A DNA stretch of 64,000 nucleotides from an uncultured Hellea sp. (GTDB lineage Bacteria; Pseudomonadota; Alphaproteobacteria; Caulobacterales; Maricaulaceae): contig CALLMD010000006.1 in assembly GCA_938007935.1 (NCBI GenBank), positions 1 through 64,000 of the forward strand, given 5' to 3'. Made by a program: the position numbers and the translations under genes. Positions within the stretch are counted from its first letter, which is position 1. The number at the start of each line of letters is the position of its first letter. Below the pieces are notes generated by a model. That model ran no database searches and was not told the origin of the DNA. It was given only the letters and a program-made list of their open reading frames with translations. This document shows, piece by piece, positions 28,401-60,309 of the stretch.

Positions 28401-28523
28401 GAAATATCCTTTTATAGAACCTTCCCGTCTCTTAAATCACTCCGACAAATTCTCCAGTCAATCCATGGTCTTTGTTGTGGATGGAATGTGAGGAGAGCGC
28501 AACGATATGTTTTTAAAAAGAAA

Positions 28524-28570
28524 AATGGTAGTGAGAGTGAGACTTGAACTCACGACCTCAGGATTATGAG
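28524..28570. repeat. attL: 47-bp copy of the tRNA-Met 3' half
   Basis: This stretch is identical to 51120-51166 and to 60231-60277. It covers the tRNA-Met 3' end through the anticodon loop, plus two bases beyond CCA. Here it lacks the 5' half, so it is not a working tRNA. It marks the left junction between chromosome and Island A. After the core the sequence turns to cgcagga, unlike the intact tRNA (tcctgcg). Confidence 0.93.
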
Positions 28571-32350: not shown

Positions 32351-32427
32351 TTTGCCTCCCTAATATTTGAAAAAGAGTATCAAAGGCTGAAAATAAAAAT
32401 GCAACCTCTTATTTGTAATTCGTAAAC

Positions 32428-33291
32428 TTAAGACTCAAGTCCGTAATCAAACAAAAATGGATTTGCACTTTTGGAGTCTGTAAACACCCAACCTCGAGAT
32501 AAATCCTTACCTAATTGTTCAAAAGTATTGAAGAGAAAAGCCTTTTTAAAATCATGAAAATTATCTGTTTGGATAAAAGCTATTTTTACACCTTTAAGAA
32601 CATTTTCTTTCATGTGTACCGAACAAATAAGCGGGGAAATTTCTAGCTTATATTTTATAGCAACAGCTCCAGTTTCCAAAACTTCGATGTAGCGCTTAAG
32701 TTGCTTGGTAACGGCCTTAGTCTCTGTGGTTCGGTGAATTTCTAAGATATAGATTCTTGGTTGCCCATTGATCGCTACCCCAAAGATACCGTCTGGCACA
32801 ATGGGAGTTGAGTCGTTTGGCAATCTGATTTCCGTTTTGGGTGTAAAATTGCCCTGCCGTCGTGAGCCAATAATATCGAAGTCCATATCCGTGAAAAGAA
32901 TATCTACATCGGGGCGACTGTTCGCCCATTGCCGAAATCCAATATGGAAATCAACTTGAACGATACGATGCTTTGCAAACATCGCTCCGAACTGGACTTG
33001 GCCTTTGGGATAAGGAAAATTTTCAATCGGTTGTTTGTAAACTTCAGCAAGGTGCTTTGCGCCATGTTCCGTAAGGTAGTGTACTTCGGGCAGAAAATTA
33101 CCAAGTTTACGTTTCTTGGCGAGAGGCTTTCTCGAACGGTGTAGCTTGGGTAATATGTTTTTACGAACGGACGCGTCACTGGCTCCGATGCCAAGTTTTA
33201 CAAATTGAGATACAGTAAGAAACCGATAGATCGATAAAGCGTGTAGAGCTTCAAGAGGTTTAGCCGAAAGTGATTGAACAACTTTACTCAT
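32428..33291 (-). CDS. Replication-relaxation family protein
   Basis: 287 residues. The N-terminal winged-helix-like part, 'LHALSIYRFLTVSQFVKLG', and 'VHYLTEHGAKHLAEVY' match the replication-relaxation family found on plasmids and integrative elements. 'RIVQVDFHIGFRQWANSRPD' and 'VPDGIFGVAINGQPRIYILE' follow, as in many members. The function is poorly known but linked to plasmid replication or transfer. Its ATG overlaps the stop of the TraD/HerA-like ATPase as ATGA. Confidence 0.8.
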   Translation of the reverse strand: MSKVVQSLSAKPLEALHALSIYRFLTVSQFVKLGIGASDASVRKNILPKLHRSRKPLAKKRKLGNFLPEVHYLTEHGAKHLAEVYKQPIENFPYPKGQVQFGAMFAKHRIVQVDFHIGFRQWANSRPDVDILFTDMDFDIIGSRRQGNFTPKTEIRLPNDSTPIVPDGIFGVAINGQPRIYILEIHRTTETKAVTKQLKRYIEVLETGAVAIKYKLEISPLICSVHMKENVLKGVKIAFIQTDNFHDFKKAFLFNTFEQLGKDLSRGWVFTDSKSANPFLFDYGLES

Positions 33292-35045
33292 TGGGCAGAG
33301 ACATCAGGAATTGGGAACTTGGGCTTTCGCAGTGGTTCTGCGTGTTTTGGATTAGGTTTATTTGTAACCTCTTTATCATCTCGATAGTAAGTTTGGCATT
33401 GAGTGGCTTTTAGGTTTTCCCACTTAGCTTTAGCTAATGCGTGTTTGTTTCCGACAATACTGATCTTGGTTTTGATAGCTTGGCGTTCAGATTGAATTTG
33501 AAAGAACTCTAACTTTTTAAGCTCCCGAATATCATCGGCACTGATGGGGTGTTCCTCGGCCATCTTCTTAGCGGTTTTATTTTTATTGCGGCCAATCAGG
33601 TAACAACCAACATTGCCAAAGATTGCGTCTAGTAAAGCACTACCAACTTGTTCTTTGCGTTGAGTGGCAAGGGTAAGGTACAATCCAAACTTTCGGCTCT
33701 CGCCTAGAATTTCTTCAATCTTGGAACTTACAAAATATTGGCATTCATCGGCAAAGAGATGAATGGGTCGGCGTTTCGTTTTCGGGCGGCTCATTGCATA
33801 GTTGGTGATAAAGGCGTTTATTAATTGCCCCGTTGTCCGAATGGCCTCTTGCGTGTGATAATCTGGGTTGAAATGAAAGACGATGAGCTTTCCCGCCTCT
33901 AAACACTCGGCTAGATTAAATGTACTCGGATTACACAAGAACTCTCTTACGGTTGGGTCGCGTATGATTTCTCCAAATCGATAACGTAGCGCCTCTTTGG
34001 TACTTTCAAAATTTCGAGAGTAAAACTGGTGTTGGAAAAAGTCTTTGTCCTGTGCATTGGGTAAATAGTTTTGCCCATACTGAACAAGGTCGCGATTACG
34101 CTTATCATCCATAAAACGGACAAGCTCTGTGAAGTTTGAATGTTTCCTATGTAATAAAACGCCGATACAGGGCGTCAGGAGTGCCCTCTGTGGTCTGGTG
34201 AGTTTTTCACCGATAATTTGCTCTAATGCCCCTAAGAATTGAACCTGAGCGCGATTAAGCGATATTTCATCCGTTCTTTGTATGTCGAATGGATTGAAAC
34301 TGATGTGTTTGCCTATGAAGTGACTAGGCGAGACATAAACGAGACGGTCATTGGTAGCATTCTCTTTAAAGCGAGCTACATCAAGTGCCAGATCGCCATG
34401 CGGATCGAGCACGACCAATGCAGGCTTTGTATTTTTCGTCAGGTAATGACGAATGAGCGTTTTGATAGCTTCTGATTTTCCTGCACCAGTTCCCCCTGTG
34501 ATAAAGGTATGACTTTTACGGGCTTTCTCACTGATATAAAAAGTCTTAGGCGTAAAAAAAAAGTTCTGCGTAAAGTCCGACCAATTATCTTGAAGGGTAG
34601 ACATAATAAAATCCAAATACCCTCCAACATCAAATTTACCAGCCGCGCGGATAGTGCGTATCTGTAAGAGTAGTTTCTGGTAGCTTTTGTGTTTTTCTTC
34701 ATATTGGGCGTAGGCTTTTTGGTATCTATAAATGCGAGCAACTTTTCGGTCTGAGGCGCTATCATATTTTATTTTTACAGGATCAAAGGCTTCATCTTCT
34801 AACTGAGGCTCAATTGGCACTTCGGGAGTAGTGCTCTGTAACCTCAGATATTCTGTGAAAGTCCAAAATGCGCCCGTACGCTCTGCTACAATATCGCAAA
34901 GGTGTTGAGTTAGGTTGGGGTTATAAATGAGCCTGTAGTGACCACAGAGCAACTGGGCATCATCAATATCATTCTCAGAGTCAGAAAAAGAAACCCCAAA
35001 CTCTTTGAGAGCCAGCTTAAACTCATGTTCAAAATCAGGAATCAT
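33288..35045 (-). CDS. TraD/HerA-like DNA-transfer ATPase (coupling-protein type)
   Basis: About 585 residues from MIPDFEHEF; the ORF could start 19 codons earlier. Walker A is 'FITGGTGAGKSEAIKTLIRH', followed by 'LVVLDPHGDLALDVARF'; Walker B is 'PIHLFADECQYFVSSKIEEI'. 'ESRKFGLYLTLATQRKEQV' is typical of TraD/TraG-like and HerA/FtsK-type DNA pumps. It has no clear N-terminal membrane helices, unlike classical VirD4. It is coupled to a replication-relaxation gene, a pairing common on mobilisable elements. A role in moving the island's DNA is likely. Confidence 0.8.
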   Translation of the reverse strand: MIPDFEHEFKLALKEFGVSFSDSENDIDDAQLLCGHYRLIYNPNLTQHLCDIVAERTGAFWTFTEYLRLQSTTPEVPIEPQLEDEAFDPVKIKYDSASDRKVARIYRYQKAYAQYEEKHKSYQKLLLQIRTIRAAGKFDVGGYLDFIMSTLQDNWSDFTQNFFFTPKTFYISEKARKSHTFITGGTGAGKSEAIKTLIRHYLTKNTKPALVVLDPHGDLALDVARFKENATNDRLVYVSPSHFIGKHISFNPFDIQRTDEISLNRAQVQFLGALEQIIGEKLTRPQRALLTPCIGVLLHRKHSNFTELVRFMDDKRNRDLVQYGQNYLPNAQDKDFFQHQFYSRNFESTKEALRYRFGEIIRDPTVREFLCNPSTFNLAECLEAGKLIVFHFNPDYHTQEAIRTTGQLINAFITNYAMSRPKTKRRPIHLFADECQYFVSSKIEEILGESRKFGLYLTLATQRKEQVGSALLDAIFGNVGCYLIGRNKNKTAKKMAEEHPISADDIRELKKLEFFQIQSERQAIKTKISIVGNKHALAKAKWENLKATQCQTYYRDDKEVTNKPNPKHAEPLRKPKFPIPDVSAQ

Positions 35046-35306
35046 GAAGCCAATTTCAAGGTGTTTTGAAAGGTTGTTTTCAACATGACACCGTGATCTC
35101 ACTAAGGGTATGAATTATATAGAGAAAACAGAGAGTTTCAAATTAAACTCTCCTATCAATACATTGTATTGAGCTAGTGTTTTCTTCTCGCGTTTCATCC
35201 TCGTCATTCGCTCTGCTCTTTCCTCGTCTTCAACTTAATCAGTCAACCCTAATCAATCCAAACATATTGCCAGTCGGCGGCTGGGTGGGCCGCCCCATTG
35301 TCTGCC

Positions 35307-35867
35307 CTACTTTGGAAGCTGTCCCTTTTTAAACAGCTCACTCAAATGCTTGGATATTGTCTCCACTTCAATATTCTCGGCAAAGGCTTTCATCTTTGCC
35401 GAATATTTTTCCTTAAAAGCGAAAACATCTTTTTCTAGCTTTGACTGATGCGTGGCAAAATCTTTACTTTGTTGATGCTCTTGCTTTGAGAGATTCAACT
35501 CTTGCTTGGCTTTGATTTGATTTTCATAAATTCTTAGTTCCAATCCCAAAATCTGCTCGTCCATTGACCAATGGTGACGGATAAAATCATCTCGCCTTCT
35601 CATGATTAATTCTAAAGCTTCACGTTCAAGTTCTCTGGCGTCTTCTGCCATATTAAACTGGTGATCGAGCAGCCTATTGTCTTTGTTAAGCTCGTGCTGG
35701 AGTTCCATTAGCTCTTTGGCATTTGCGCCCTCGATTAAAACGGATTGTGTTTTTTGCCGTTCTTTTCGAGCATCATTGGCTTCTTGACGTTGACGCGTTA
35801 GCTCAGCGCTTTTCTCTAGGCGAATAATGGCATCTTGCTGACGTTTCTCTGCGGCTTGCCAATCCAT
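35307..35867 (-). CDS. Coiled-coil protein of unknown function
   Basis: 186 residues, almost entirely charged helix (Glu/Lys/Gln-rich), e.g. 'AAEKRQQDAIIRLEKSAELT' and 'HQQSKDFATHQSKLEKDVFA'. No signal peptide. The ATG overlaps the stop of the previous coiled-coil gene (TAATG). Third of three coupled coiled-coil genes upstream of the TraD/HerA-like gene. Could be a structural partner of the ATPase. The 204-base gap to that gene holds no gene I can support. Confidence 0.65.
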   Translation of the reverse strand: MDWQAAEKRQQDAIIRLEKSAELTRQRQEANDARKERQKTQSVLIEGANAKELMELQHELNKDNRLLDHQFNMAEDARELEREALELIMRRRDDFIRHHWSMDEQILGLELRIYENQIKAKQELNLSKQEHQQSKDFATHQSKLEKDVFAFKEKYSAKMKAFAENIEVETISKHLSELFKKGQLPK

Positions 35868-36977: not shown

Positions 36978-38006
36978 ATGTCAAATCCAACATTACAGCA
37001 TGCGAAAGAACAAATTCGAAATAAATACCCGCACCTCATTTCATTATTATCGCCTGATGAAATAAAACTTTATGAGCAAGAAATAGGAAATCAAGAAACA
37101 CCGATCTGGCGATATTGGGAAGACTATGTTTTTAAAACCCTCATTCTAGGGAAAAGCCCTATTACCATAAAATCAGTTCGAGATGGTCTAAATACAATCA
37201 TGCGCCACACGGGCATTCTGACCATTGAACAAGCCAATTCACTAGGTGTGTTGGATCAAGCCACATTAGAGCTACAAATAAAACGAAACCAAAAACCAAG
37301 CACGCGCAATACCTATCTCAAAAATTTCAACACCTATTTTATCTGGCTCTATAAAAATAACTTGATCCAACAAAACAATATTGCTCGCATCGAGAAAGGC
37401 CGCGAAGCACCGCCAGATGTAAAACCGCTAAGTTTAGACCAAATTGAGAAGACAGTTCTACATTTTGGGCGAAGACATCATTCAACGGCACTTGAACGCG
37501 CTCGAAATATTTTAATGGTAGACGTGTTCCGATTTTCTGGTGTTCGCCCCTGCGAATTACTCAGCATGAACAATGATGATATTTTTCAAGAAAACGGAGA
37601 GTGGAGAATGGTGATTAATGGCCGCAAACAAAAAGGGCGTTTACGATATTACGAATTGCCTAGTTTTGTTGTTCATTCCTATCAAAATTATATGAGGTTA
37701 CGTTTCGATAAAGACCGATACGAGAAACCATTATTTATCTCTATGTCTTCACGTGAGGGATGGAAAACAAGCGGTCTACAGCAACTATTTAAGACTGTTT
37801 CAAAAGAGCTTGGGTTTCGAATTACCGCCTATGGTTTTCGGCGTTTTATCGCCACTCAAATGAGCCGAAACGGTATCGCCCGCGATGATCTATCCCGTTA
37901 TTTGGGGCATAATCGATTTACGACTACAGATAGGTATATCGCTAGAGAGTGTCATCTAACACGGAATGGCACCGATATGATGAAGCAAATGTACGATGAT
38001 ATCTGA
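36978..38006 (+). CDS. Tyrosine recombinase/integrase
   Basis: 342 residues. N-terminal SAM-like core-binding region, then the catalytic domain: first Arg in 'FRFSGVRPCELLSM', second box 'ITAYGFRRFIATQMSRNGI' (the usual H-x-x-R reads Y-G-F-R), then 'LSRYLGHNRFTTTDRYIA' with the His and the nucleophilic Tyr. The Tyr for His change in box II occurs in some active recombinases. It lies far from the att sites, so it is a second, internal recombinase. It is one of four in Island A. Confidence 0.85.
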   Translation: MSNPTLQHAKEQIRNKYPHLISLLSPDEIKLYEQEIGNQETPIWRYWEDYVFKTLILGKSPITIKSVRDGLNTIMRHTGILTIEQANSLGVLDQATLELQIKRNQKPSTRNTYLKNFNTYFIWLYKNNLIQQNNIARIEKGREAPPDVKPLSLDQIEKTVLHFGRRHHSTALERARNILMVDVFRFSGVRPCELLSMNNDDIFQENGEWRMVINGRKQKGRLRYYELPSFVVHSYQNYMRLRFDKDRYEKPLFISMSSREGWKTSGLQQLFKTVSKELGFRITAYGFRRFIATQMSRNGIARDDLSRYLGHNRFTTTDRYIARECHLTRNGTDMMKQMYDDI

Positions 38007-38434: not shown

Positions 38435-39337
38435 TCATTCCATGTTATTCATCAAATGTCTTTCGACACTTTCACGTTTATCATCCAATGAAAGATGCGC
38501 GTAAACTTGGGTGGTCTTTATACTCGAATGACCCAATAAACCAGATACGGCGTAAATATCACGAGACCCGCGATAAGTATGTGTAGCGAAAGTGTGCCGC
38601 AGAACTTGCGGAGAAAAATCTATACCTGACCTTTCTTTAAGCTTACGGCACATCACCTGAATTGCGCGAGGGCTTAATGGTGTATCTTGATTGACACATG
38701 TAAAGAAACTTATTTGCTTGGTCTTTTTCGATCTCCGTTCAACGTATTCCAACAAAAAATAAAGCAGTCGAGAAGAAATAGGCACTTGTCGATCTTTGTT
38801 CCATTTTCCTTGTCTTACGAAAATGACGCCATTTTCTAAGTCTACGTCCAACCGTTTTAGGTTGGATATTTCAGAAAGCCTTAGACCCGCAAAAATCATA
38901 ATCCCAATAATAGCTCTGTTTCTGATACCCTCCAGTTTATATGTGTAAGGAAGATGGTAAGCCGTTTCCAGTAACTGTTCACAGACATCTGGCATAAGAT
39001 ATTTGGGCAATCTTTTTTCTAGTGGTGGCTTATCGATGTCATCAGTATAATTGTGGGGTAGGTATTTCTTCTTTACGCACCAGTTACAAAGTGCCCGCAA
39101 ATGTTTCAAATAAGATCGGAATGTCACAACCGACCAATTCCTTTTTGTACGTCCATCAAGAAGAAACTTTTCAATGATTTCTGGCGATAGATCACTCAGT
39201 GTTTCTACATTGGAGGCTTTAGCAAAAAAGCTAAATGTACTTCGATAGCTTTTGATCGTCGCGGGTTGGAAGTTCTTAAATATTTTTCCGTGTTGTAAAT
39301 ACAGATCACAGATAAGGTTGAAGTCGTCGGATTTCAT
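38435..39337 (-). CDS. Tyrosine recombinase (XerC/D-like)
   Basis: 300 residues. Core-binding domain 'TIKSYRSTFSFFAKASNVET'; catalytic residues in 'MIFAGLRLSEISNLKRLD' (Arg), 'GKWNKDRQVPIS' (Lys), 'FSPQVLRHTFATHTYRGSRD' (here Q-V-L-R-H) and 'VSGLLGHSSIKTTQVYAHLS' (His and Tyr). It is of XerC/D size, without an arm-binding N-terminus. It lies about 130 bases from a tRNA-Ser 3' fragment, the type of site such enzymes use. It is probably the integrase that placed that fragment there. Confidence 0.88.
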   Translation of the reverse strand: MKSDDFNLICDLYLQHGKIFKNFQPATIKSYRSTFSFFAKASNVETLSDLSPEIIEKFLLDGRTKRNWSVVTFRSYLKHLRALCNWCVKKKYLPHNYTDDIDKPPLEKRLPKYLMPDVCEQLLETAYHLPYTYKLEGIRNRAIIGIMIFAGLRLSEISNLKRLDVDLENGVIFVRQGKWNKDRQVPISSRLLYFLLEYVERRSKKTKQISFFTCVNQDTPLSPRAIQVMCRKLKERSGIDFSPQVLRHTFATHTYRGSRDIYAVSGLLGHSSIKTTQVYAHLSLDDKRESVERHLMNNME

Positions 39338-39702: not shown

Positions 39703-40008
39703 ATGACAAATCGAAATGAGATAATAAAATCAAAAGGTAGTGAGATTGAACCTCAACTGGAAGCTTCGATTCCAATAATGGATTTACTTAAAGATCCTGA
39801 TGCTATGAACGCTCTCGACAATCTTATAGGTTCAATAATGGATCGAAGTAGAAAGAATGCTACTGGTGAAAGAGTCTTACAAGGTTTGGGAGTTGTCTTG
39901 CTTGTATCTGCAGTTTCAATTCTTTCTTATTTAGAAAAAATGACGCCAAGTGCTGGGGTTATTTTTGGAGCACTAGCAGGTTACATATTCGGAAAAGGCC
40001 TTGAATAG
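39703..40008 (+). CDS. Small membrane protein upstream of the Avs-like gene
   Basis: 101 residues. A charged N-terminal part ('MDLLKDPDAMNALDNLIGSI') is followed by two hydrophobic helices (about 58-74 and 80-96). No known family. It lies 64 bases before the large STAND-type NTPase and on the same strand. A link to that defence-like gene is possible but unproven. Confidence 0.5.
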   Translation: MTNRNEIIKSKGSEIEPQLEASIPIMDLLKDPDAMNALDNLIGSIMDRSRKNATGERVLQGLGVVLLVSAVSILSYLEKMTPSAGVIFGALAGYIFGKGLE

Positions 40009-40072: not shown

Positions 40073-43000
40073 ATGTTAAAGGGAGGATTCGCTGATAAAC
40101 TAGGAAATCGCTATGAAGCCAAATGGACTATCAGTAGGCTTCTATTGGTGCTCGCTGGTGACTATGAACATCTTACTTATGAGGGCATCAACGAGGACTT
40201 TAAGGGTTTTGAATTTAGATTAAGCGACTCACAAATTACACAGTGGCACCAAACTAAGATAAACGCCCCTAAAGGTAACTGGACTATTGGAGCACTTCAG
40301 AGAGAAAATTTGCTAAAAGCATTTAAGGATCGGCTAGATGCTGATCAAAATGCACAATGTCATTTCATTTCCCAAGACAATGCTAAAAGCCTCAGAGAAC
40401 TCGCGAATGATGCCCGTCTAGCAAATTCACCTGAGGAGTTTGTGTCGGCTCTAGCTGATGGTCGAATCTCAGATTTTGAAAAACTTAAATATACTTGGGA
40501 TTGTGATAGCAATCATGCATGGCAATTGTTGCAGGGTATCTACGTCAAAGTAATTGTCGAAAGTGAAATCGATACGAACATTACGGCTCTAAGTAGGTTA
40601 CTGCTCAATGTCGATGGCGACACTTACGCGATTTTGCGAAAACATGTCGAAGAAAATTTGAATAAGAGGGTCAATAGAGAGACTCTAAAAAATTGGATCA
40701 ACTCAGAAGATGGTGTTGAATTCAAAGCATGGGCAAGTCCCAAATCCAATATTGAGAGAATACAAGCTGCAAATGAGAGGTATTTATCTACCTATATCCC
40801 ATTCGGAATAGGCGGCAAAACAATCACTAGGAATCAGACTGAAGTTATATGCTCCGACATTATCGACTCTGAAGGCTCAAAAATTGTAATTCTTGCAGGC
40901 GTTGCAGGAAGCGGAAAATCAGGCGCCGCTAGACAAATCATCGATACCTTTAATGAGGCAGGTATTCCTACTTTAGCATTTAGAGTAGATCACTATTTAG
41001 ATTGCCGGCACCCTTCTGAAATAGGCAAAGCCGTTTTAGATATAAATGATTCACCTGTAGCACTACTGAAAGCTCTTTCACCCAGAGAAACTTCCGTGCT
41101 GATCATTGATCAGTTGGACGCTGTTAGTGAAGTGTCAGGTCGAAATGGCGTTGTGAAATCGGGTCTGTTTGAACTTCTTGATGAAGCTTCTCAATACGGA
41201 ACTGTGAAAGTTATTATTATTTGTCGAAGTTATGATCTCGAAAATGATGATCGCTTTAGGAAGCTCTCGAATGGATATAAAACTACCAAAGTTGATCTCC
41301 CCTTACTTAACTGGAATGAAGAAATAGTGCCTGTCTTAGAGGCACTAGACTATGATTGCTCGCAGTTTTCTGAACGACAAAAACGGCTGCTATCTGTTCC
41401 CGTTAACTTAGCTGTCTTTATCGAAACTGGCGATAAATACTTTTCATTTAAAAACCGTGCTGATCTTTTTGGTAAATTAATCAGAAAGAAAGAAAAAGTC
41501 TTTGTAAAACTCGGCTTCTCTTGGTCACTCATGACGCCTTTACAAAAGGTGGCAAAATGGATGAGCGATAGACAGGAGCTATCTGCTCCCGAAAGCATCT
41601 TAGATGAATTTTCAGGTTCTGGTGACTTCTTAAGCTCAGAAAACCTGATTGTCATTTCAAATAGAAAGATCAACTTCTTTCACGAAAGCTTTTTCGATTA
41701 CATTTACGCCCGTTCCTTCATTTCTGGAGAACAATCCGTTCTGGAGATGGTTTTATCAGGAGAACAACATCTCTTCCGAAGAACCCAAGTCCGTCAGATT
41801 TTTGCGCTTATGCGAGAAGCCGATCACTCAAATTACATTCAACAACTGAAGGGCTTACTAATTAGTCAGTTTGTACGTTACCACTTAAAGCTATCAATCG
41901 CACAATGGCTCGCCTCATTAGATGATCCTAGCGCCGATGAGCTAGGTGTCGTCCTTGGATTAGGAAACAGTGAATTAAATAGCCTCCAAATAGTAGTTCT
42001 ATTCTCAAACGCAAATTGGTTCTCTCTACTTCATGAGCAAAAAATCATCGAAAAAACCCTACATGGAAGTTCTGAAAAGAATTCGCGTATAACGCTAAAC
42101 TGGTTATCACAAATAGCAGGACGGCATCCGTCTGAAATAGCCAAGTTAATAGAGAATTGGTGGGCTAAAGATGAAACAAAAGCAGAGCAGCTTGTAGACT
42201 GGTTTGGGTTTCTCAGACGTAATAAGCCAGATGATGAGCTGTTAGAATTATGCGGGCAGGTAATAAAATTTCGTCCCAAGAATCTTTTCAAAGATGAAGG
42301 TCGTGACCGTATAATGATGCTATTGCATACTTGGGTTGATCATGAACCTGAAAAATGTGGAGCTTTAGTAAAAGAACTGTTCGATGCGTGGTTTGAAATG
42401 CATCCCGATGCCAATCTACTTGACCGCGACGATTTTAAGCTCTTGGACAATCATTCGTTAAGCGAGCTTGCGAAAAAGTCATCCCGAGCATTTGTAGAGG
42501 GAACAAGAGATGCGATATTGAGGACTGTAAGAGAAACAGTCGAACAAGGAGAAGAAGGCCGTAGATGGTATTCTCTCATGTCGTCCATGAGATCAGATTA
42601 CCTACATGGTTTCGACGGCCTGTTTCAACTTTTTGAAAAATCACTCTGTGAGCTAAGTAGAACCGAGCCTGATTTCACTAGAGAAACTCTCGCCCGCCTG
42701 CCAGCAAGCCTTCATCCGCGATTTATGGGGTTACATCTGGGAATAATTGGTACAAGCTCCGACACATTCGGAGACATGCTTAGTTCACTCCTTGACGATG
42801 ACAATGCCCTAAAAGCTGGAGTCGATGGGGCTGAATGGAAACCGTTCGCTATAGCTTGTAAAGCCATGTTGGGAGTATCTAACGATTTACGAGATATAAT
42901 CGAAGCTAAGATTTTTTCTATTGATCACGAAATTCAAAGAGCAAAGAGGCTTTGGGACCTATTAAAAAGAGGAGAGGCCAATGAGTGGGTTGATAAAAAC

Positions 43001-44644
43001 TCGGTTCTGAGAAGCTTAAATTTTTCAGGTTGCAGAGAGTGGAATATTCTACACTTCATCGGCATCGAAAACTTATCTGAGAAAGGGAGGAGGCGTTATC
43101 AGCAACTGAGTCACAAGTTTAATACCGAACATATTGATGAAGAAAACTCAGTTCGTATGATTGGAGTTCACTCGCCTATCGGTGCTGAGCAAGCACAACG
43201 AATGAATGATGAGCAGATAATTTCTGCTATGCTAAAATATGATACTGACGAGGGAAAAGATTGGAGGCGCGGAGGTGCATATGAGCTATCTTCTGTAATC
43301 ACAGATCAAGCAAAGAATGACCCAAACCGATACTTAGCTTTACTTTTAAAGTTGCCTCTAAATATCAATCATCTATACCATTCAGGAGTTTTGAGAGGTA
43401 TACGCGATGCGGAAGCCTTCGATAATGAGGTGGCAAGAACGGCTATTCTTCATATCCATGAACATTTTAAATCCAAGCTATCAGACGAAATTTTAAGCGT
43501 GATAGAGACTCATTCATCACTCATTTTATCCGATAAAATAAAAGAACTAGTCTTCGATTATGCCGTTAATGGAGACAGCCCTAGCAGAGAAGACCTTCGT
43601 GAATACAGCGACGATGACTCTAATAATTCTAAAAACAAACTACTCACCGTTGATGATCTTGTTCGATCAGGTGGTGGTGGCATTATGATACAATCCGTTC
43701 ATGGAGGGCGTGCAAAAGCTTGGGACACGCTCAAACGAATTGGCTGGGATCATTCCTCAATACACCAAGAAATTTGGGATTTAGTAGAAACACAAGCTAT
43801 CGATGAAAAGTCGGTAAGCATCAGGGCTAGAATATTTGATGCAATGACGCCACTCTTTAATGACGATAAAAAACGTTATGAAAATGCCTGCCACACACTC
43901 TTCGACCAGAAGACCATAGGAAACAGATCAATCGATCCAATAGCAATATTAGCGACACTTCATGGCGTAAATATGCAAAAATATATCGATTTCAATATGC
44001 CTAAATTCGCTTCAAAATGCATCCACAGGATGACCACAAATGACAATAAAAATGTTCAAGCCGTTGGGACATGGTGGTTGTTTTGTGAGCATTTTCGACA
44101 TGGACGCTCAGGTATACCGCTCAAAGCCGTCGATGAAATGAGCGATCAAGAAAAAATCCTTTATGCTGATATCTTGTCACATGCGTTTCATTGGGACGAA
44201 GTGGAAAAGTCTGCGGAAACTGATTTAATCAGAATGTTCAATGACCCCAATATCAAAATAGGCGAACAAGCCTCTGAAGTTTTCAGGAATTGTAAGCCCG
44301 AAGATTTTCATCGTTGTTTAAAGTTGGCGGAAGCATATATCCGAACAGATGCATACTTAGAAGCATCAACTTACATACTATACGCATTAGATAGCGCAGA
44401 ATGTGATGTCATGGAACTTGTAGTGTTCGGTGCAGAACGATTAATCGCAAGTATTATTGATAAAGGTGATCAACATGGTAGCCGAGGAACAGGCCTTTAT
44501 AAATTACAGGAGCTATTAGCGCGAGAATATGCTGCTTCGGAAAAACGACAAGATATCAGAAAGAGAATATTAGATTTGATCGACCTTATGCTTGAAAATG
44601 ATATTTACGGCACTGAAAAAATTACCTTGGCAAATGATAGATAA
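40073..44644 (+). CDS. STAND-type NTPase with N-terminal Cap4/Mrr-like nuclease domain (Avs-like defence protein)
   Basis: 1523 residues. N-terminal part (about 1-200): 'GGFADKLGNRYEAKWTISRL' is typical of Cap4/Mrr-like dsDNase domains. The likely catalytic residues are Glu15, Glu47 ('KGFEF') and Gln60-x-Lys62 ('HQTK'). NTPase core: Walker A 'GVAGSGKSG' (276-284), Walker B 'SVLIIDQLDAVS' (341-352). From about 450 to the end are helical, repeat-like sequences, as in Avs sensors that recognise phage proteins. In Avs proteins, binding of a phage terminase or portal drives tetramer formation and nuclease activity. This gene fits that plan, but the sensor target is unknown. It is AT-rich compared with the core genome. 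Confidence 0.8.
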   Translation: MLKGGFADKLGNRYEAKWTISRLLLVLAGDYEHLTYEGINEDFKGFEFRLSDSQITQWHQTKINAPKGNWTIGALQRENLLKAFKDRLDADQNAQCHFISQDNAKSLRELANDARLANSPEEFVSALADGRISDFEKLKYTWDCDSNHAWQLLQGIYVKVIVESEIDTNITALSRLLLNVDGDTYAILRKHVEENLNKRVNRETLKNWINSEDGVEFKAWASPKSNIERIQAANERYLSTYIPFGIGGKTITRNQTEVICSDIIDSEGSKIVILAGVAGSGKSGAARQIIDTFNEAGIPTLAFRVDHYLDCRHPSEIGKAVLDINDSPVALLKALSPRETSVLIIDQLDAVSEVSGRNGVVKSGLFELLDEASQYGTVKVIIICRSYDLENDDRFRKLSNGYKTTKVDLPLLNWNEEIVPVLEALDYDCSQFSERQKRLLSVPVNLAVFIETGDKYFSFKNRADLFGKLIRKKEKVFVKLGFSWSLMTPLQKVAKWMSDRQELSAPESILDEFSGSGDFLSSENLIVISNRKINFFHESFFDYIYARSFISGEQSVLEMVLSGEQHLFRRTQVRQIFALMREADHSNYIQQLKGLLISQFVRYHLKLSIAQWLASLDDPSADELGVVLGLGNSELNSLQIVVLFSNANWFSLLHEQKIIEKTLHGSSEKNSRITLNWLSQIAGRHPSEIAKLIENWWAKDETKAEQLVDWFGFLRRNKPDDELLELCGQVIKFRPKNLFKDEGRDRIMMLLHTWVDHEPEKCGALVKELFDAWFEMHPDANLLDRDDFKLLDNHSLSELAKKSSRAFVEGTRDAILRTVRETVEQGEEGRRWYSLMSSMRSDYLHGFDGLFQLFEKSLCELSRTEPDFTRETLARLPASLHPRFMGLHLGIIGTSSDTFGDMLSSLLDDDNALKAGVDGAEWKPFAIACKAMLGVSNDLRDIIEAKIFSIDHEIQRAKRLWDLLKRGEANEWVDKNSVLRSLNFSGCREWNILHFIGIENLSEKGRRRYQQLSHKFNTEHIDEENSVRMIGVHSPIGAEQAQRMNDEQIISAMLKYDTDEGKDWRRGGAYELSSVITDQAKNDPNRYLALLLKLPLNINHLYHSGVLRGIRDAEAFDNEVARTAILHIHEHFKSKLSDEILSVIETHSSLILSDKIKELVFDYAVNGDSPSREDLREYSDDDSNNSKNKLLTVDDLVRSGGGGIMIQSVHGGRAKAWDTLKRIGWDHSSIHQEIWDLVETQAIDEKSVSIRARIFDAMTPLFNDDKKRYENACHTLFDQKTIGNRSIDPIAILATLHGVNMQKYIDFNMPKFASKCIHRMTTNDNKNVQAVGTWWLFCEHFRHGRSGIPLKAVDEMSDQEKILYADILSHAFHWDEVEKSAETDLIRMFNDPNIKIGEQASEVFRNCKPEDFHRCLKLAEAYIRTDAYLEASTYILYALDSAECDVMELVVFGAERLIASIIDKGDQHGSRGTGLYKLQELLAREYAASEKRQDIRKRILDLIDLMLENDIYGTEKITLANDR

Positions 44645-45160: not shown

Positions 45161-45769
45161 ATGGTGAATATACAACGAATCATTAACTCTAAAAGTACTT
45201 TAACCTTGATGCCAAGTTCACTTCTGAGAAAACCCTCTGATGGCTCTGAAATTGCATCAGAAAGCCTGAAGCGAGATCATTCAAATGAAACTCAGGCCTA
45301 TTTACGCCTAATTTCTGCCGATAACTCGTTTTCTGAACGCAAAAAAGCGATTGGAGAATGGCTAGTGTACTATAATGAAACAGAGTCGAGACAAGACCCA
45401 TCTACGGCCATAAAACAGCTAAACACAATGGTAGATTTTCTTTTCCCCAAAACAGATGACCTCGGGAAATCATGGAATGCTCTGCTTAAAAAGCGAATAC
45501 CAAACGCAGCTACCTCAGAAAGTGTTACAAAATATGGTAATTTAATAAAACTGTGCTACGGTAACTATGCCAATAATCATACATCTATGGAAAAATTTGA
45601 TTTTCATTCTGCCAAATCTCGTATTGAAGCACTCGTTCCAGAGGTCATTAAAGAGCTTGATGAAAGAGAAGCCGAACTAGACCTTCAAATCAAAGAGTCC
45701 CGTGAAAGACAAGCTGAATACAAGATAGCTTTAGTAAATTCCCAGCGTCTGATTGAGGCGATAAGTTAA
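45161..45769 (+). CDS. Hypothetical protein, coupled to a coiled-coil partner
   Basis: 202 residues. N-terminal part of unknown fold; the last 50 or so residues are a charged coiled coil ('IKELDEREAELDLQIKESRE'). No known domain. Its stop is 1 base before the next ATG, so the two are one unit. Both are unlike core genes in base composition. The 174 bases upstream hold a plausible promoter (ttttaaatttgtaatct) but no proven one. Confidence 0.5.
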   Translation: MVNIQRIINSKSTLTLMPSSLLRKPSDGSEIASESLKRDHSNETQAYLRLISADNSFSERKKAIGEWLVYYNETESRQDPSTAIKQLNTMVDFLFPKTDDLGKSWNALLKKRIPNAATSESVTKYGNLIKLCYGNYANNHTSMEKFDFHSAKSRIEALVPEVIKELDEREAELDLQIKESRERQAEYKIALVNSQRLIEAIS

Positions 45770-46123: not shown

Positions 46124-47005
46124 CTATTTACTACGATTTATTCGCCCCTGCTTCCGCTTCCTTTTCTTCAATTTATCCCGATAAGCTTTTGGCACTGATT
46201 TCTGATTGCTAACTGACTTCGGTTTTGAAGCGTGAATGTCGAGATGATCTCTCAAGGCAAAATAATCAGGTTCACGAGTTTTGTCCGACCAGATAAAATT
46301 ACTGACTTTGCGAGCTATGGTTTGATTAATCTGACCATCCGAATTGATAATACCAAGCTCTCTCAAGTTGAGATTCCAGTAAAGGTTTTCTTGCTTTAAC
46401 TCACCTGTTCCATCAGGGCGGCGGCACCAACTCAGCGCGTATTCAATATCATCTTTGTTCGCCGATTGGCTCGTATTATCGAGATTGGGATCAATAAATA
46501 TCTGCATGAAGCATTTGTCGATATCAGGGATATTACCGTTACATCGGTCATAAAAAGCCAACAATTCCGACATATATTCCAATGATAAGTCTTGGCGGAT
46601 CATCTCTACGATCAAACCTATTTGCGGGGTTTTATTCCAATAAGGCGCTACCAACTGGGCAAGCGCCGCTAAACGGGCATAATCCACTTCTCCGTTAGCT
46701 GTTTTAAGCTTGAGATCATTTAGATCAAAAGTAGGTGGCTTAAAGGAAACGCCTTCACCTGTTTTTCTAGCCGCTTCTAATGCGGGACGGATTTTATTAT
46801 AGGCTTGGTTCCATCGTTTAGCACTACACAGCCAGATATAGAGCTGATTGATATAATCGGACAATGGCGCGTCCGCAAAACCATCACCGAGCATTTCAGG
46901 CGGTAAAATATTATCTAAGGGTATGCCCGTATCGCCTTTGCGTATGTTAAAATAGATTATCCCTGCGTCGTTCTTAAACAGCCCAACCGTTCCATTTTCT
47001 TCCAT
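46124..47005 (-). CDS. Hypothetical protein (island)
   Basis: 293 residues, no family recognised. Segments such as 'QLYIWLCSAKRWNQAYNKIR' and 'DIEYALSWCRRPDGTGELKQ' look soluble and helical, and the C-terminus is strongly basic ('KAYRDKLKKRKRKQGRINRS'), which suggests nucleic-acid binding. Last gene of a minus-strand run from the integrase at 49554, with an 18-base gap to the 465-residue gene. Confidence 0.55.
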   Translation of the reverse strand: MEENGTVGLFKNDAGIIYFNIRKGDTGIPLDNILPPEMLGDGFADAPLSDYINQLYIWLCSAKRWNQAYNKIRPALEAARKTGEGVSFKPPTFDLNDLKLKTANGEVDYARLAALAQLVAPYWNKTPQIGLIVEMIRQDLSLEYMSELLAFYDRCNGNIPDIDKCFMQIFIDPNLDNTSQSANKDDIEYALSWCRRPDGTGELKQENLYWNLNLRELGIINSDGQINQTIARKVSNFIWSDKTREPDYFALRDHLDIHASKPKSVSNQKSVPKAYRDKLKKRKRKQGRINRSK

Positions 47006-47023
47006 GTATTATCAGTGTACGGA

Positions 47024-48421
47024 TTATGCTTCGCCTGAAAAATCCAAGTTCTGATTTTCTCGCTCCGCTTCAGAAACAGGATCAACAAATTGCGGATATA
47101 ATCGGTGTAGATAATCCACTAGCCCTAACTGATCGGAATGCCCTGAAGCATAGTTTTCCTGCGTGTAATCCCCGAATGCCGCGATGACCTCTAAGTTTGG
47201 ATGTCCGTCTGCATTTTCCAATCCCAATCGTTTCAAGACTTTGGTTGTTCCAGCTTGGTTATTTTCCCAGCCAAAGGTGGTTTGGGTTTCAGAGAATAAG
47301 CGACTTTGATTTTGGATAAGGGTTTGTTGGTGTTCAAAGTTTTCAATGTCACCATCATACCCTGCAAAACCACCAGTCATGTGACTAATCACTTGTCGAA
47401 ACCGATTAACGGTCAAAGGATCAAAAGCTCCGCCGCTATCCAATACTGAGAAATCAATTTTGTAGATATTCTCAACAAAGCCCGTGGTTCCAAAGCTTTC
47501 AGTCGTATGCCAGTAATGCATGACTTCGACCATTAGGCCAATGTCCTCGCCTGACCAACCCGTAACGTCTTTGGTGACGATATGATCGCCTGATCGAGCT
47601 TCGATAATCTGTCGGCCTGACGGTTCGGCATAGCCGCTCACGCCCGATCTAAATTCACGCTTATTGTCTTCGGTATTGCTAAAGACCCCATCAGCATTTT
47701 TCTCCGAGAGAACGTCCTGCACATCTGAGCCTGTGACAACATCTCGAAGACGTGTTTTAGTTTCTGCCGAGAATGCTTCTGATTTATCTATCTCAGCTAA
47801 TACAGGCGAGAACATGGTGTTGAGATCATTCGCGCCTAAGTCAATCGGTACAGATGCCAACATAGCTTCAAAGGCGGCTTGCTCTTGTGGGTCTTCAATA
47901 ACGCTCCGTAAATCGGCAAGTGTCTTTCTAAACTGGGTTATTTGTTTCAGGGCTATTTCAGCTTTGTCAAATTTCGACACCTGCGCTTCAATCCGTTCTA
48001 ATTTGGTATCAATACTGCCACCCTTTTCAAATTCTTCCCGCGCTACTTCATTTAATTTTGTTAGCACTTCAGTCGTTGTGTCAATCTTCTCTAGCTCTTC
48101 TGTTTTCGCGGCGATTTCAGTGTTTTCAATACAGGTATCAAGTTCAAATTCAGCGAAATCAGGATCATCTAATATAGCTGGATCAGTGATAAGTAATTTG
48201 GCCGCTTCATGTGCCGCCATTGATAAATGTAGTGAAGAGTTACATTTATCTCGTAGGTAATCTTGAGCGTGTTCTGGCAAGCTTAATAGGGAGGTATCAA
48301 CGCTATCGCTTAAAGATACTCGTTCTTGAGTGGATGCCTCTAAAGCGTCTGATTTCTCCTGCAAATAATCTGCGTTTGACTCAGGTGATCTCTCGCCGCC
48401 AGCCAACTCATAAGAGTTCAT
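47024..48421 (-). CDS. Hypothetical large soluble protein (island)
   Basis: 465 residues, no domain recognised. The first 220 residues are helical and charged ('NTEIAAKTEELEKIDTTTEV', 'EARSGDHIVTKDVTGWSGED' later). The segment TTTEVLTKLNEVAREEFEKG is closely similar to one in the small lipoprotein encoded just upstream (NTTNEVLSKEFQQMAREEFE), so the two genes share a duplicated piece. No signal peptide. Confidence 0.55.
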   Translation of the reverse strand: MNSYELAGGERSPESNADYLQEKSDALEASTQERVSLSDSVDTSLLSLPEHAQDYLRDKCNSSLHLSMAAHEAAKLLITDPAILDDPDFAEFELDTCIENTEIAAKTEELEKIDTTTEVLTKLNEVAREEFEKGGSIDTKLERIEAQVSKFDKAEIALKQITQFRKTLADLRSVIEDPQEQAAFEAMLASVPIDLGANDLNTMFSPVLAEIDKSEAFSAETKTRLRDVVTGSDVQDVLSEKNADGVFSNTEDNKREFRSGVSGYAEPSGRQIIEARSGDHIVTKDVTGWSGEDIGLMVEVMHYWHTTESFGTTGFVENIYKIDFSVLDSGGAFDPLTVNRFRQVISHMTGGFAGYDGDIENFEHQQTLIQNQSRLFSETQTTFGWENNQAGTTKVLKRLGLENADGHPNLEVIAAFGDYTQENYASGHSDQLGLVDYLHRLYPQFVDPVSEAERENQNLDFSGEA

Positions 48422-48840: not shown

Positions 48841-49554
48841 CTATTCTCCATTTTTTGTCAAATATTCGTCGAGCTTAGGAGCCAGTAATTCCCATAATTG
48901 ATCGGCCAAACCCGCCTGATTTTCTTGGACAGGCATTGGGTCAAATATGTTGTGAGTGAGCGCGGCTTCTCGCGCCTGAGCTTCATCTATGCCGAGATAA
49001 CGGATGGTTGACACAGATGATCTATGGCCGAGTAAACGACCAATAAGCTCCACTGTAACACCTTGCTGATAAAGGTAGATCGCCTTTGAACGTCGTAGAG
49101 AGTGTGCACTAATATTCTGCGAAGGAATACCAACCGCTTTAACCCATGACTTAATCAGTGTTCGATAAAAGCCAATCGTTATCGGTTGACCATGTGGGTC
49201 TTTAGTTCGCGTGAAAATATAATCGTGTTCTCGTTTCTGACTTGCGATCACCCAGCTCTTAAGAGCCTTACGCGTATCAAGGGTAAGTACAGGAAAAACA
49301 GATTGAGATGTTTTCTTCTGCCGTAACGGAAAGCTTTGATGAACTGCCCCATCTGAAAGCATTACATCTCGGGTTTTCAGGTTCAACAAATCCGAGGCTC
49401 GGAGCATCGTATCTATGGCCACCATAAACAGGCAGTAGTCATGTGAATGGTTTTTTAATTGCGATCTGATCTGCGCAATTTCAGGCACGGATAAGGCTCG
49501 CCGTGCACCGACACTGCGGCCTTTGTTCCACGGCTGGCCGTAATTTCTCGTCAT
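48841..49554 (-). CDS. Short tyrosine recombinase
   Basis: 237 residues: catalytic domain with only a short N-terminal extension, as in FimB-like or phage-type short recombinases. Catalytic positions: 'DTMLRASDLLNLKTRDV' (Arg), 'AHSLRRSKAIYLYQQG' (H-x-x-R), 'LLGHRSSVSTIRYLG' (His, Tyr). Divergent from the HTH/integrase pair across a gap holding two similar repeats. It could be an inversion or resolution enzyme of the element rather than its integrase. Confidence 0.82.
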   Translation of the reverse strand: MTRNYGQPWNKGRSVGARRALSVPEIAQIRSQLKNHSHDYCLFMVAIDTMLRASDLLNLKTRDVMLSDGAVHQSFPLRQKKTSQSVFPVLTLDTRKALKSWVIASQKREHDYIFTRTKDPHGQPITIGFYRTLIKSWVKAVGIPSQNISAHSLRRSKAIYLYQQGVTVELIGRLLGHRSSVSTIRYLGIDEAQAREAALTHNIFDPMPVQENQAGLADQLWELLAPKLDEYLTKNGE

Positions 49555-49746: not shown

Positions 49747-50136
49747 ATGTCAGTTGAAATATCTGAACTTCATATTGCGATAGCGCAGGCTAAAGGATTC
49801 CAAGTCTACGAGACTTATAGCGAACCAAAGGCCGCACAGATTTTAGGCCTTAGCCTCTCTACCCTGAGTCGATTACGGCATAGCGGGTCTATTGGCTTTA
49901 TCCAAAAAAGCGAACGCCGTGTGGGGTATTTCGGGTTTCACCTCATCGACTATTTATTAGCGCGACAATCATGCCCAAATACAGAACAACGAAAAGATAC
50001 CAAGTCGGTGATTACTGGCTCTCTAAGCAAAGCCGTAGCCCCGCATGGTGCCGTACATGGTACTGCAAACGTACCAAGCAAACCCGCCGTACTTCACTCC
50101 TCACGACAGATTTTAACGAGGCCAAGGATCGCTTAA
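49747..50136 (+). CDS. HTH protein, probable excisionase (Xis-like)
   Basis: 129 residues; the HTH 'SEPKAAQILGLSLSTLSRLR' near residue 25-45 resembles MerR/AlpA-type excisionase domains ('HSGSIGFIQKSERRVGYFGF' follows). The reading frame overlaps the integrase gene by 166 bases; the last 50 or so residues look non-conserved and the real end may be read through that overlap. An excisionase just upstream of the integrase is the usual order in integrative elements. Confidence 0.6.
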   Translation: MSVEISELHIAIAQAKGFQVYETYSEPKAAQILGLSLSTLSRLRHSGSIGFIQKSERRVGYFGFHLIDYLLARQSCPNTEQRKDTKSVITGSLSKAVAPHGAVHGTANVPSKPAVLHSSRQILTRPRIA

Positions 50137-51143
50137 ATCAGTGGTTTATTTTGGAATGCCAAAAGAAAAATCAACCAAGTGATCATGTGACTATCGCTTC
50201 AATCTTTGCGCGGTATTATGAAAAGCATGGTCGGCATTTAAGCTCATATGATAGCGTTAAACGGAACCTCGAACACTGGTTGGATTTCCACGGTGAAGCA
50301 ACGCTCGAAGAAGCGGCTGATCTACGCCAACAAGAAATCTTTAGAGACTGGCTTCAGACAGAACGCAAACTCGGTTTAAACTCGGTGCGTAAGGTTATTA
50401 CTATCGGAAAGGCTGCTTTTAACTGGTCGTACAAACGCGGTGAAATTGAAAACGTCCCCTACTTTGAAACGGTCAAAGTACCAACACCTGAACCGCTCGG
50501 ACGACATCTTGAAATCTCAGAAATTGCCGCCCTCTTTCGAGCCGCTGATAAACCACATATCAAAATGTTTATGATCATGCTCATAGCGACAGCGGCGCGG
50601 CCAAAGGCTGTCTTAGATTTACAGTTCGATCAGATCGGCTTCAAACGTGACATCATTGATCTGAACCCGAAAGGCAGAACGCAAACGACTAAAACGCGGC
50701 CAATAGTCAAAATACCAAAATCTATAAAGCCGCTTCTAAATTTAGAACAAAGCATGAACTTAAATTCTTACCTAATCCATTACAAAGACGCACCGATTAA
50801 GAGCACTCGATCCGCTTGGCAAAACTTACGGGATGCCGCTGGATTAGATAAAAAAGTCATGCCCTATTCTATACGCCGCACAATTGCACGGTTCATGAGA
50901 CAGCAAGGGGTTCCTGCTTGGGAAGTAGCGGAACAACTGGGACATAAGTCCACTGGCTACCGCATTACAGAGCTATATACGGCTCATAGTCCTGACTATT
51001 TAGAAAAAGCTGTAGAGGCGATTGATGTATTCTTTGACCAATTAACGTGTGAATTACGTGTGAGTCGTCTTGAAGACATTTTTCATGGCTCTGAAAAACC
51101 GTTAAAAATCAAGGAGAAGAATGGTAGTGAGAGTGAGACTTGA
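49971..51143 (+). CDS. Island A integrase, stop codon inside the att core
   Basis: 390-residue tyrosine recombinase. An N-terminal arm-binding-like part is followed by the core-binding 'YEKHGRHLSSYDSVKRNLEH'. The catalytic domain has 'MLIATAARPKAVLDL' (Arg), 'MPYSIRRTIARFMRQQG' (box II, Y-S-I-R) and 'AEQLGHKSTGYRITELYTAH' (His, Tyr). The final seven residues (NGSESET) and the TGA are read from the 47-bp tRNA-Met att core starting at 51120. Because the core includes the stop, the protein stays the same whether the island is integrated or excised. ACGTGTGA arm motifs lie inside its 3' end. Confidence 0.9.
   Translation: MPKYRTTKRYQVGDYWLSKQSRSPAWCRTWYCKRTKQTRRTSLLTTDFNEAKDRLNQWFILECQKKNQPSDHVTIASIFARYYEKHGRHLSSYDSVKRNLEHWLDFHGEATLEEAADLRQQEIFRDWLQTERKLGLNSVRKVITIGKAAFNWSYKRGEIENVPYFETVKVPTPEPLGRHLEISEIAALFRAADKPHIKMFMIMLIATAARPKAVLDLQFDQIGFKRDIIDLNPKGRTQTTKTRPIVKIPKSIKPLLNLEQSMNLNSYLIHYKDAPIKSTRSAWQNLRDAAGLDKKVMPYSIRRTIARFMRQQGVPAWEVAEQLGHKSTGYRITELYTAHSPDYLEKAVEAIDVFFDQLTCELRVSRLEDIFHGSEKPLKIKEKNGSESET
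51045..51065. promoter_or_regulatory. Arm-type sites at the right end of Island A, inside the integrase gene
   Basis: Two tandem copies, acgtgtgaatt (51045) and acgtgtgagt (51056), 55 bases before the att core. They match the motif at the left end (28661-28731), with one 11-bp exact inverse copy. They are within coding sequence, so the match is constrained by codons as well. Confidence 0.6.
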
Positions 51144-51166
51144 ACTCACGACCTCAGGATTATGAG
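51120..51166. repeat. Middle att copy (47 bp) joining Island A and Island B
   Basis: Identical to 28524-28570 and 60231-60277. It lies between the Island A integrase and the Island B integrase and carries only the tRNA 3' half. It is thus both the right end of Island A and the left end of Island B. Confidence 0.93.
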
Positions 51167-51300
51167 TTCTGTGGAAAAGATTATTACAACGAACATTTGC
51201 GATGTTGAAAGACTGAGTAATGTTATAAAAGATAATATTATCAATGACTTAAAAGCTTTATAGTTCCCCAAATGTGAGGAGCGATTGGGAAAAGATTAAA

Positions 51301-51346: not shown

Positions 51347-52642
51347 ATGACAAAAATAAAACTAAAAGCCAGAGCAATCGATAAGTTGCCAATTACTGGC
51401 AAACGCTATGATGTACGTTTCTTAGACCAATCCGCTAGAGGACTAATTTTACGTGTAGGTAAGAACGGCAGCAAAACTTGGAGCTTCTGGCAAAAAATAC
51501 CAAATTCATCTGAAATATTTTCAAATACCTTTGGTAAAGTTGACTTAGATGCCCATGACAAAATCAAACCAATCAATATTGATGAAGCAACCGAATGGGC
51601 AGCATCACAAAGAGTTGCAGTTAAGAATGGAAAAAACAAGAAACGCTCAAAAAGACTGGCCGAAGGCCCGCTAACTTTTGAAAAATTATATCAAGAGTAT
51701 GTGCAAGACCATGCAAAAATTCGAAATTGTCTCTCATCACAAGAGAATAATGAGAGACTTTGGCGATTACACATAAAACCAGAATTTGAAAATCTAGTTG
51801 TTAAATCTATTCAGCATGAGGACATTGATTTTTTTATAAGCAAGAAGTTTTCTGAACTACGTTCACATGGTGGCTCTGGAGGACGTGCGAACAATATTCT
51901 ATCGCTTATGTCATCAATAATGAATTTTGCTCTGCGGCGCAGATATATTACATCCAACCCATGTTTCGGAATAAAAAAAATTAAAACCAAACATGAATGG
52001 CCCGAAATTACGAATGAACAACGAACCCTTTTGAGGACAACTGCTGCAGAAGAAAGCCCTATGATGGGTCTTATTGTAGATATTGCTCTGATAACTGGAG
52101 CCAGAAAACAGGAAATTCTAAAGGCGCGATGGGAAGAACTTGACGGTAATCTTTGGACTATTCCATCACGCAGAAAGAAAGGCGGCAAAGAACATGTGCT
52201 TACTTTGCCTCCACGATTATGCGCCCATATAAACTCTTGGCGTCAAAGACCTAGCATTATCAATGATAACGGAGATACAGCAACGATGGTTAGAAATGCT
52301 GGGTATATTTTTCCCTCTACAGCATCGAAATACAAGGGCAATCGGCGGAAAGGGATAAAGTTCACGCCTGAGAATGAAAGACCGCCTTTACAAGATATCA
52401 AATCTCCATGGACACGTATTAAGAAGGCTTCAAATCTTGAGTATTTGCGTTTTCATGATTTAAGGCATGACTTCGGCACCCAATCTGCAAGAGCTGGTAT
52501 GAGTCTCTTCGATTTAATGGATGCAATGGGACATCAAAACGTCAGCACAACAATGCTATATATCAATAAAGCAGGTCTGAATGGTCAACAGAAAGTTTTA
52601 GCTATGAGGGAAGAAATGTTAGAGAAAGCCCGAAAACTGTAG
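51347..52642 (+). CDS. Island B integrase (P4-type tyrosine recombinase)
   Basis: 431 residues. The N-terminal 'LDQSARGLILRVGKNGSKTW' is the DUF4102-like arm-binding fold of P4-type integrases. Catalytic residues: 'DIALITGARKQEILKARWEE' (Arg), 'RRKKGGKEHVLTL' (Lys), 'RFHDLRHDFGTQSARAG' (H-x-L-R-H) and 'MDAMGHQNVSTTMLYINKA' (His, Tyr). It reads away from the middle att site from 181 bases inside it. It is distinct from the Island A integrase, which explains the two sets of arm repeats. Confidence 0.93.
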   Translation: MTKIKLKARAIDKLPITGKRYDVRFLDQSARGLILRVGKNGSKTWSFWQKIPNSSEIFSNTFGKVDLDAHDKIKPINIDEATEWAASQRVAVKNGKNKKRSKRLAEGPLTFEKLYQEYVQDHAKIRNCLSSQENNERLWRLHIKPEFENLVVKSIQHEDIDFFISKKFSELRSHGGSGGRANNILSLMSSIMNFALRRRYITSNPCFGIKKIKTKHEWPEITNEQRTLLRTTAAEESPMMGLIVDIALITGARKQEILKARWEELDGNLWTIPSRRKKGGKEHVLTLPPRLCAHINSWRQRPSIINDNGDTATMVRNAGYIFPSTASKYKGNRRKGIKFTPENERPPLQDIKSPWTRIKKASNLEYLRFHDLRHDFGTQSARAGMSLFDLMDAMGHQNVSTTMLYINKAGLNGQQKVLAMREEMLEKARKL

Positions 52643-59901: not shown

Positions 59902-60230
59902 TGTACTCTCTCAGTCTAAGATGCGTCTTTAAAGATTATTGACCAAAATCTTGGTTCATTCCCGAAATATTACTTAAGCAGTAACCCAAAGTGCTACAGA
60001 CCTAATATGGGAACATGGGTCAAAAATAGCCTTAAATAGATAGATTTTGAAGACCGAGAGAATCTTTATTGAGATAAAAATTTGGGGAAAATCAAACCCG
60101 ATTCAAACCGCCCATATTTTTAAAAATAAGCAGGATGACTAGCTTAACGACGCATTAAGCTAGGTCTGAGAGACTAAGACATTGAAATAAAACAATATTT
60201 ACGTTACAAATGTCGAAACTTTTAAGAAAA
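59902..60230. other. Noncoding region holding the right arm of Island B
   Basis: 329 bases. It contains the 24-bp repeat (60088-60111) 120 bases before the att core and AT-rich sequence on each side. No gene is supported. Confidence 0.5.
60088..60111. repeat. 24-bp direct repeat, right arm of Island B
   Basis: aaaatcaaacccgattcaaa followed by ccgc; matches 51301-51324 with one mismatch, same orientation. 120 bases inside the right att core. Probable integrase arm site. Confidence 0.6.
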
Positions 60231-60277
60231 AATGGTAGTGAGAGTGAGACTTGAACTCACGACCTCAGGATTATGAG
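60231..60277. repeat. attR: 47-bp core within the intact tRNA-Met gene
   Basis: Third copy of the core, here joined to the chromosomal tRNA 5' half, so the tRNA is restored. It forms the right junction of Island B. Confidence 0.93.
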
Positions 60278-60309
60278 TCCTGCGCTCTAACCAGCTGAGC
60301 TACCCCACC
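60233..60309 (-). tRNA. tRNA-Met (CAT anticodon, elongator type)
   Basis: 77 nt. Acceptor GGTGGGG pairs with TCTCACT (three G-U pairs; the first, G1-U72, is usual in tRNA-Met). D-arm GCTC/GAGC, anticodon arm CAGGA-CTCATAA-TCCTG, T-arm GTGAG-TTCAAGT-CTCAC, discriminator A, encoded CCA. Its 3' half is the att core of both islands. tRNA-Ile2 with a lysidine CAT is an alternative, but the general pattern fits elongator Met better. Confidence 0.9.

Follow-up and report, generated by a model that had tools for sequence, protein, structure and literature searches.

What the open reading frame at positions 40073 to 44644 of this 64,000-nucleotide stretch of DNA (the window, contig CALLMD010000006.1 of an uncultured Hellea sp.) encodes is the question raised by this locus, and in particular whether its product is an immune receptor of the Avs kind and, if so, one of an already described type. 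A preliminary description made from the letters alone had proposed an Avs-like STAND NTPase with a Cap4/Mrr-type nuclease domain and a long helical sensor. The frame starts with ATG on the forward strand, runs for 1523 amino acids, and has no internal stop. Full-length relatives at 33 to 38% identity in several phyla show that the frame is a genuine gene under selection and did not arise by chance. The features discussed below are collected in Table 1.

Domain architecture of the window protein

Pfam matches in the window protein were limited to the P-loop core, amino acids 271 to 389, with E values of 4e-5 for NACHT and 2e-4 for AAA; measured against the curated cut-offs, the NACHT score falls slightly below and the AAA score above. 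The P-loop and a DQxD Walker B motif are common to the 17 intact family members, the window protein included, and the aligned relatives keep the NTPase motifs GxAGxGKS, DQxD, and CRxxDL, as well as the signature EQHLFRRTQVRQI. With a P-loop, a Walker B motif, and a NACHT-like core, the protein has the makeup of a STAND/NACHT NTPase.

The N-terminal region was matched by no Pfam model, and conservation in the family peaks in its first 75 residues, with a mean pairwise identity of 53%. The aligned relatives share the N-terminal motif GG[IF]ADKLGNxYE. Residues of the PD-(D/E)XK type, namely, E37, an acid at position 47 (D or E), and Q60xK62, are kept in nearly all of the 17 intact members, and in the AlphaFold model the catalytic-type residues lie at or on predicted strands 33 to 36, 48 to 51, and 56 to 62. 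The model and the family alignment together present the alpha-beta-beta-beta core with acid ... acid-x(n)-[EQ]xK of PD-(D/E)XK enzymes. The proposed Cap4/Mrr-type nuclease therefore held in part: the PD-(D/E)XK-type residues sit on a predicted core of the right kind, but searches of the window genome and of the records that hold relatives with the Pfam model Cap4_nuclease (PF14130) hit only an unrelated protein, in record G583. A Cap4 identity is thus not confirmed by this profile. The label justified for this putative nuclease is "PD-(D/E)XK-type, Cap4-like" at most, on the grounds of the motif, the predicted fold order, and homology to the solved chain 9n00 described below.

Foldseek searches with the AlphaFold model of amino acids 1 to 690 (mean pLDDT of 85.5) returned as the best solved folds Avs3 with terminase (8dgc, E value of 7e-14) and Avs4 with portal (8dgf, E value of 2e-13), followed by NLRP9, NLRC4, NLRP3, and Avs5. 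TM-scores over the whole two-domain model were low, at 0.26 to 0.29, and the fold match is not domain-resolved; low scores are expected when relative domain positions differ. The C-terminal 830 to 1000 or so amino acids are all-alpha, as is the model of amino acids 560 to 1523 (pLDDT of 81.8), and resemble HEAT solenoids, including karyopherins, CAND1, and SF3B1, among the top 50 PDB matches, none of which was an Avs protein. Identity in the sensor blocks mostly drops to 30 to 38% in pairwise comparisons and is mostly 22 to 31% against the window protein. Motifs, Pfam core, and models thus agree on a nuclease, an NTPase, and a long helical sensor, in that order, in one protein, and the sensor is as unlike known Avs C termini as had been suspected.

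TABLE 1 Features of the window gene, its island, and distant relatives with other N termini
Feature	Position	Strand	Basis or remark
Whole coding sequence, nuclease - STAND NTPase - HEAT-type sensor	40073..44644	+	ORF and full-length relatives
N-terminal PD-(D/E)XK-type nuclease region (predicted), aa 1-245	40073..40807	+	Invariant columns, model strand order, 9n00 profile match
Catalytic candidates E15; E37; E47; Q60-K62	E37, 40181-40183; E47, 40211-40213; Q60-K62, 40250-40258	+	Invariant columns
STAND/NACHT-type NTPase core, aa 245-560	40805..41752	+	Pfam NACHT/AAA; Foldseek to Avs3/Avs4/NLRs
P-loop GVAGSGKS, aa 276-283	40898..40921	+	Invariant or almost so among members
Walker B-like LIIDQLD, aa 343-349	41099..41119	+	Family alignment
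Post-NTPase family signature EQHLFRRTQVRQI, aa 564-576	41762..41800	+	Family alignment
All-helical C terminus, a HEAT-type solenoid and presumed sensor, aa 690-1523	42140..44641	+	Model; faster-evolving than nuclease/NTPase
Best-conserved sensor segment, KF...SP...GGA..L......P.R, aa 1010-1095	43100..43357	+	Common even to 9n00
Att-like direct repeat of tRNA-Met 3' end, island left end	28521..28570	.	
Att-like direct repeat between tandem elements	51120..51167	.	Overlaps 3' end of integrase ORF 49971-51143
tRNA-Met (CAT), 60233-60309, with att-like repeat 60228-60278	60228..60309	-	Insertion site, island right end
Caspase-headed protein, shared NTPase and sensor	L029:5465-10594		Nearest found to solved chain 9n00
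PNP- and SEFIR/TIR-headed proteins, shared NTPase and sensor	L012:4509-9779; L032:6146-10780		

Relation to Avs proteins and other known systems

The tripartite plan of Avs proteins, an effector followed by a STAND NTPase and a C-terminal repeat sensor, is found in the window protein in a single chain. Avs3 (8dgc) and Avs4 (8dgf), with an effector nuclease, a STAND NTPase, and a long helical sensor, share that plan and are the best solved folds for its nuclease and NTPase model, which bears out an "Avs-like" architecture. However, neither has a sequence-profile match to the window protein, whose C-terminal half resembles HEAT/karyopherin-type solenoids and not the sensors of Avs3 and Avs4. The profile search against Avs1 to Avs5 that had been suggested at the outset came back empty: neither PADLOC nor NCBIfam Avs models matched the window protein, the best PADLOC Avs match among the relatives was to Avs2 (E value of 0.0015, NTPase only), and the NCBIfam Avs models matched none of 12 family members. 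PADLOC, NCBIfam, and PHROGs yielded no useful name for the window protein, and among curated models none was found that names it as a defense protein. Membership in Avs1 to Avs5 is thus rejected at the level of the PADLOC and NCBIfam profiles. A plain new member of one of these types, missed by the profiles through divergence and sensing terminase or portal, would explain why Avs3 and Avs4 head the Foldseek matches, but it sits poorly with the empty profile searches and with a HEAT solenoid for a sensor, and we consider it unlikely. The window protein is Avs-like in design, yet it lies outside Avs1 to Avs5 by the tested profiles and has a different sensor.

Run against the PDB, the profile of the whole protein gave a single significant match, to 9n00 chain A (E value of 6e-22). 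This solved protein (9n00, 9n01, and 9yix, chain A), recorded as an "AAA family ATPase," has 1523 amino acids, the same length as the window protein. The nuclease-region profile matched 9n00 residues 5 to 194, which include a D...QCK motif, with an E value of 5e-7, and the sensor-segment profile matched with an E value of 6e-6. Because the nuclease, sensor-segment, and whole-protein profiles all match, the two proteins share a layout end to end, with a nuclease-like N terminus, an NTPase, and a C-terminal solenoid. They differ in that 9n00 is distant in sequence and its NTPase and sensor are nearer to cyanobacterial caspase-STAND proteins than to the window family; a fragment of the 9n00 sequence matched for the most part relatives from cyanobacteria (caspase type), at around 36%. 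Among the papers searched, none cites structure entry 9n00.

Two other described systems were compared. PDC-M54A, itself only a candidate phage defense system in PADLOC, resembles the NTPase of relatives (E values of 1e-10 to 1e-13) and, in the Herpetosiphon relative, both nuclease and NTPase. The window protein had no hmmscan match to it, and a genome search with the model gave a weak match over the NTPase (E value of 2e-7). PDC-M54 comprises the PDC-M54A protein plus one or more partner genes; the relatives in the window family look like single genes. EruA, a NACHT antiphage protein (NCBIfam NF058535), is similar to some relatives in its NACHT-type core, but they scored 25 to 27 bits against a cut-off of 1000, and the model has 1318 positions and a short N terminus. 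With the relatives this far below the cut-off and no match to NF058535 in the window genome, membership in EruA is ruled out.

The NTPase and sensor profiles of the family also reached proteins with other N termini, namely, a caspase-STAND protein (L029), a PNP-STAND protein (L012), a SEFIR/TIR-STAND protein (L032), and a NACHT protein (L030). Judged by these profile matches, therefore, the NTPase-sensor half is a shared chassis, and the nuclease is one among several effectors.

Distribution of the family

The 17 intact family members consist of the window protein and 16 relatives from several phyla. Searching plasmids by tblastn recovered full-length homologs from Sinorhizobium numidicum and Rhizobium phaseoli (35% identity, query coverage of 100%) and more remote ones from Isosphaeraceae, Herpetosiphon, Tolypothrix, Nostoc, and Segatella. 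A search of GTDB genomes with an alignment as the query added 15 further loci, from Desulfobacterota, Aminicenantes, Alpha- and Gammaproteobacteria, and one planctomycete. A single-sequence query of genome contigs and viral contigs gave no family match; the alignment query alone reached the family. No phage record among those searched matched the window protein, and one contig labeled as viral (L028, from IMG/VR) carries a truncated remnant of the family. Several copies (L018, L019, and L025) are broken by frameshifts or stops. The gene is rare and patchily spread: of the 199 nearest genomes, the window's own alone carries it, and within the class 3 genomes out of 385 match, with a full-length copy in just one apart from the window genome.

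In the family tree, the Aminicenantes and Desulfobacterales sequences and those of another "deltaproteobacterial" bin lie very near each other. The window protein forms a long lone branch, nearer to the Aminicenantes/Desulfobacterales group than to the rhizobial sequences, a placement marked as unsure. Horizontal transfer is the simplest reading of this tree.

The relatives are stand-alone genes with differing neighbors, for example, a multiubiquitin/ThiF set at L007 and an integrase at L010. The remnant in the viral-labeled contig adjoins HamA (PF08878, E value of 5e-57) and a protein with a reverse transcriptase (RT) domain (PF00078, E value of 1e-25). That region (L028:4884-13305), with a HamA/HamB-like pair, the truncated copy, and the RT-domain gene, forms a defense cluster. 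As the preliminary description noted, a gene for a small membrane protein (positions 39703 to 40008, 101 amino acids) precedes the window gene. It stands beside none of the fetched relatives, and searches of 199 related genomes and of the plasmid set gave no homolog, which rules it out as a system partner; as far as the relatives show, it would be unrelated passenger DNA.

Genomic setting

The window gene is carried as cargo within a low-GC block (0.35 to 0.44, against 0.47 to 0.53 in most of the flanks) that extends from 28.5 kb to a tRNA-Met gene. Direct repeats of 48 to 50 bp, copies of the tRNA-Met 3' end, occur at three sites and mark two tandem integrated elements, one of about 22.6 kb and the other of about 9.1 kb. 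Integrases flank the middle repeat, at 49971-51143 and 51347-52642. Five tyrosine recombinase genes, all matching Phage_integrase, lie within 16 kb (36978-38006, 38435-39337, 48841-49554, and the two just named). Farther upstream, a gene for a T4SS-coupling/HerA-like ATPase (33288-35102) adjoins genes for a 917-amino-acid P-loop protein (29597-32350) and a 287-amino-acid protein, and the genes at 29597-35867 may form either a transfer module or another defense module. Downstream of the window gene, the island proteins encoded at 45161-45769 and 46124-48421 had no Pfam match. The second element carries a gene for a 612-amino-acid AAA/ABC-type ATPase (58063-59901) that looks by eye like OLD/AbiEii-type ATPases and is possibly a further defense gene.

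This setting bears on the target. Location on an integrative island, together with relatives on plasmids, would fit a guard of the carrier island whose main targets are plasmids, satellites, or competing mobile elements, and not phage virions. Nothing specific speaks against this, but most island-borne STAND systems that have been tested act on phages, and we give it a small chance only.

Proposed function

We consider it probable, at roughly 80%, that the window protein is a stand-alone antiphage (or anti-mobile-element) immune receptor working like Avs3 and Avs4. The architecture and motifs, the Avs3/Avs4 folds, the HEAT-solenoid C terminus, and the end-to-end homology to 9n00 argue for this, as do the patchy spread across phyla, the tRNA-Met island, the single-gene organization, the remnant in a defense cluster, and the swapping of effectors. 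The best reading is a single-gene, Avs-like receptor of an unnamed clade that would act by abortive infection. STAND proteins serve many roles, and an NLR/STAND signaling protein in regulation, development, or programmed death under stress, with its nuclease acting on the host genome, is conceivable, but the patchy mobile spread, tRNA island, broken copies, remnant adjoining HamA and an RT gene, and fast divergence of the C terminus are typical of defense genes and make such a role very improbable.

In the general Avs scheme, a repeat sensor binds an invader component, the NTPase oligomerizes, and the nuclease cuts DNA (PMC12931631). From Avs and NLR precedents we infer ligand sensing, oligomerization, DNA cleavage, and abortive infection for the receptor proposed here. 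At rest, the NTPase would keep the protein inactive. Binding of a foreign protein or other invader signal by the C-terminal HEAT-type solenoid would then lead the NTPase domains to assemble into an oligomer, in which the N-terminal PD-(D/E)XK-type nuclease domains would be paired and activated. The activated nucleases would cleave DNA and thereby halt the infection, with the cell itself probably lost.

More tentatively, and at somewhat less than even odds, the family may be a separate branch of bacterial pattern recognition receptors, in which the solenoid reads some conserved part of the invader that is neither terminase nor portal and one NTPase-sensor chassis serves, in different bacteria, nuclease, caspase, PNP, or SEFIR/TIR effectors. 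With the window protein comes an unnamed clade of nuclease-STAND receptors that spans phyla and whose HEAT-type sensor differs from known Avs sensors, and the 17 intact members provide material for finding the invader signal to which a solenoid of this kind responds. Since the sensor is retained in distant relatives while the effector is exchanged, identifying the trigger of one protein could explain several systems at once.
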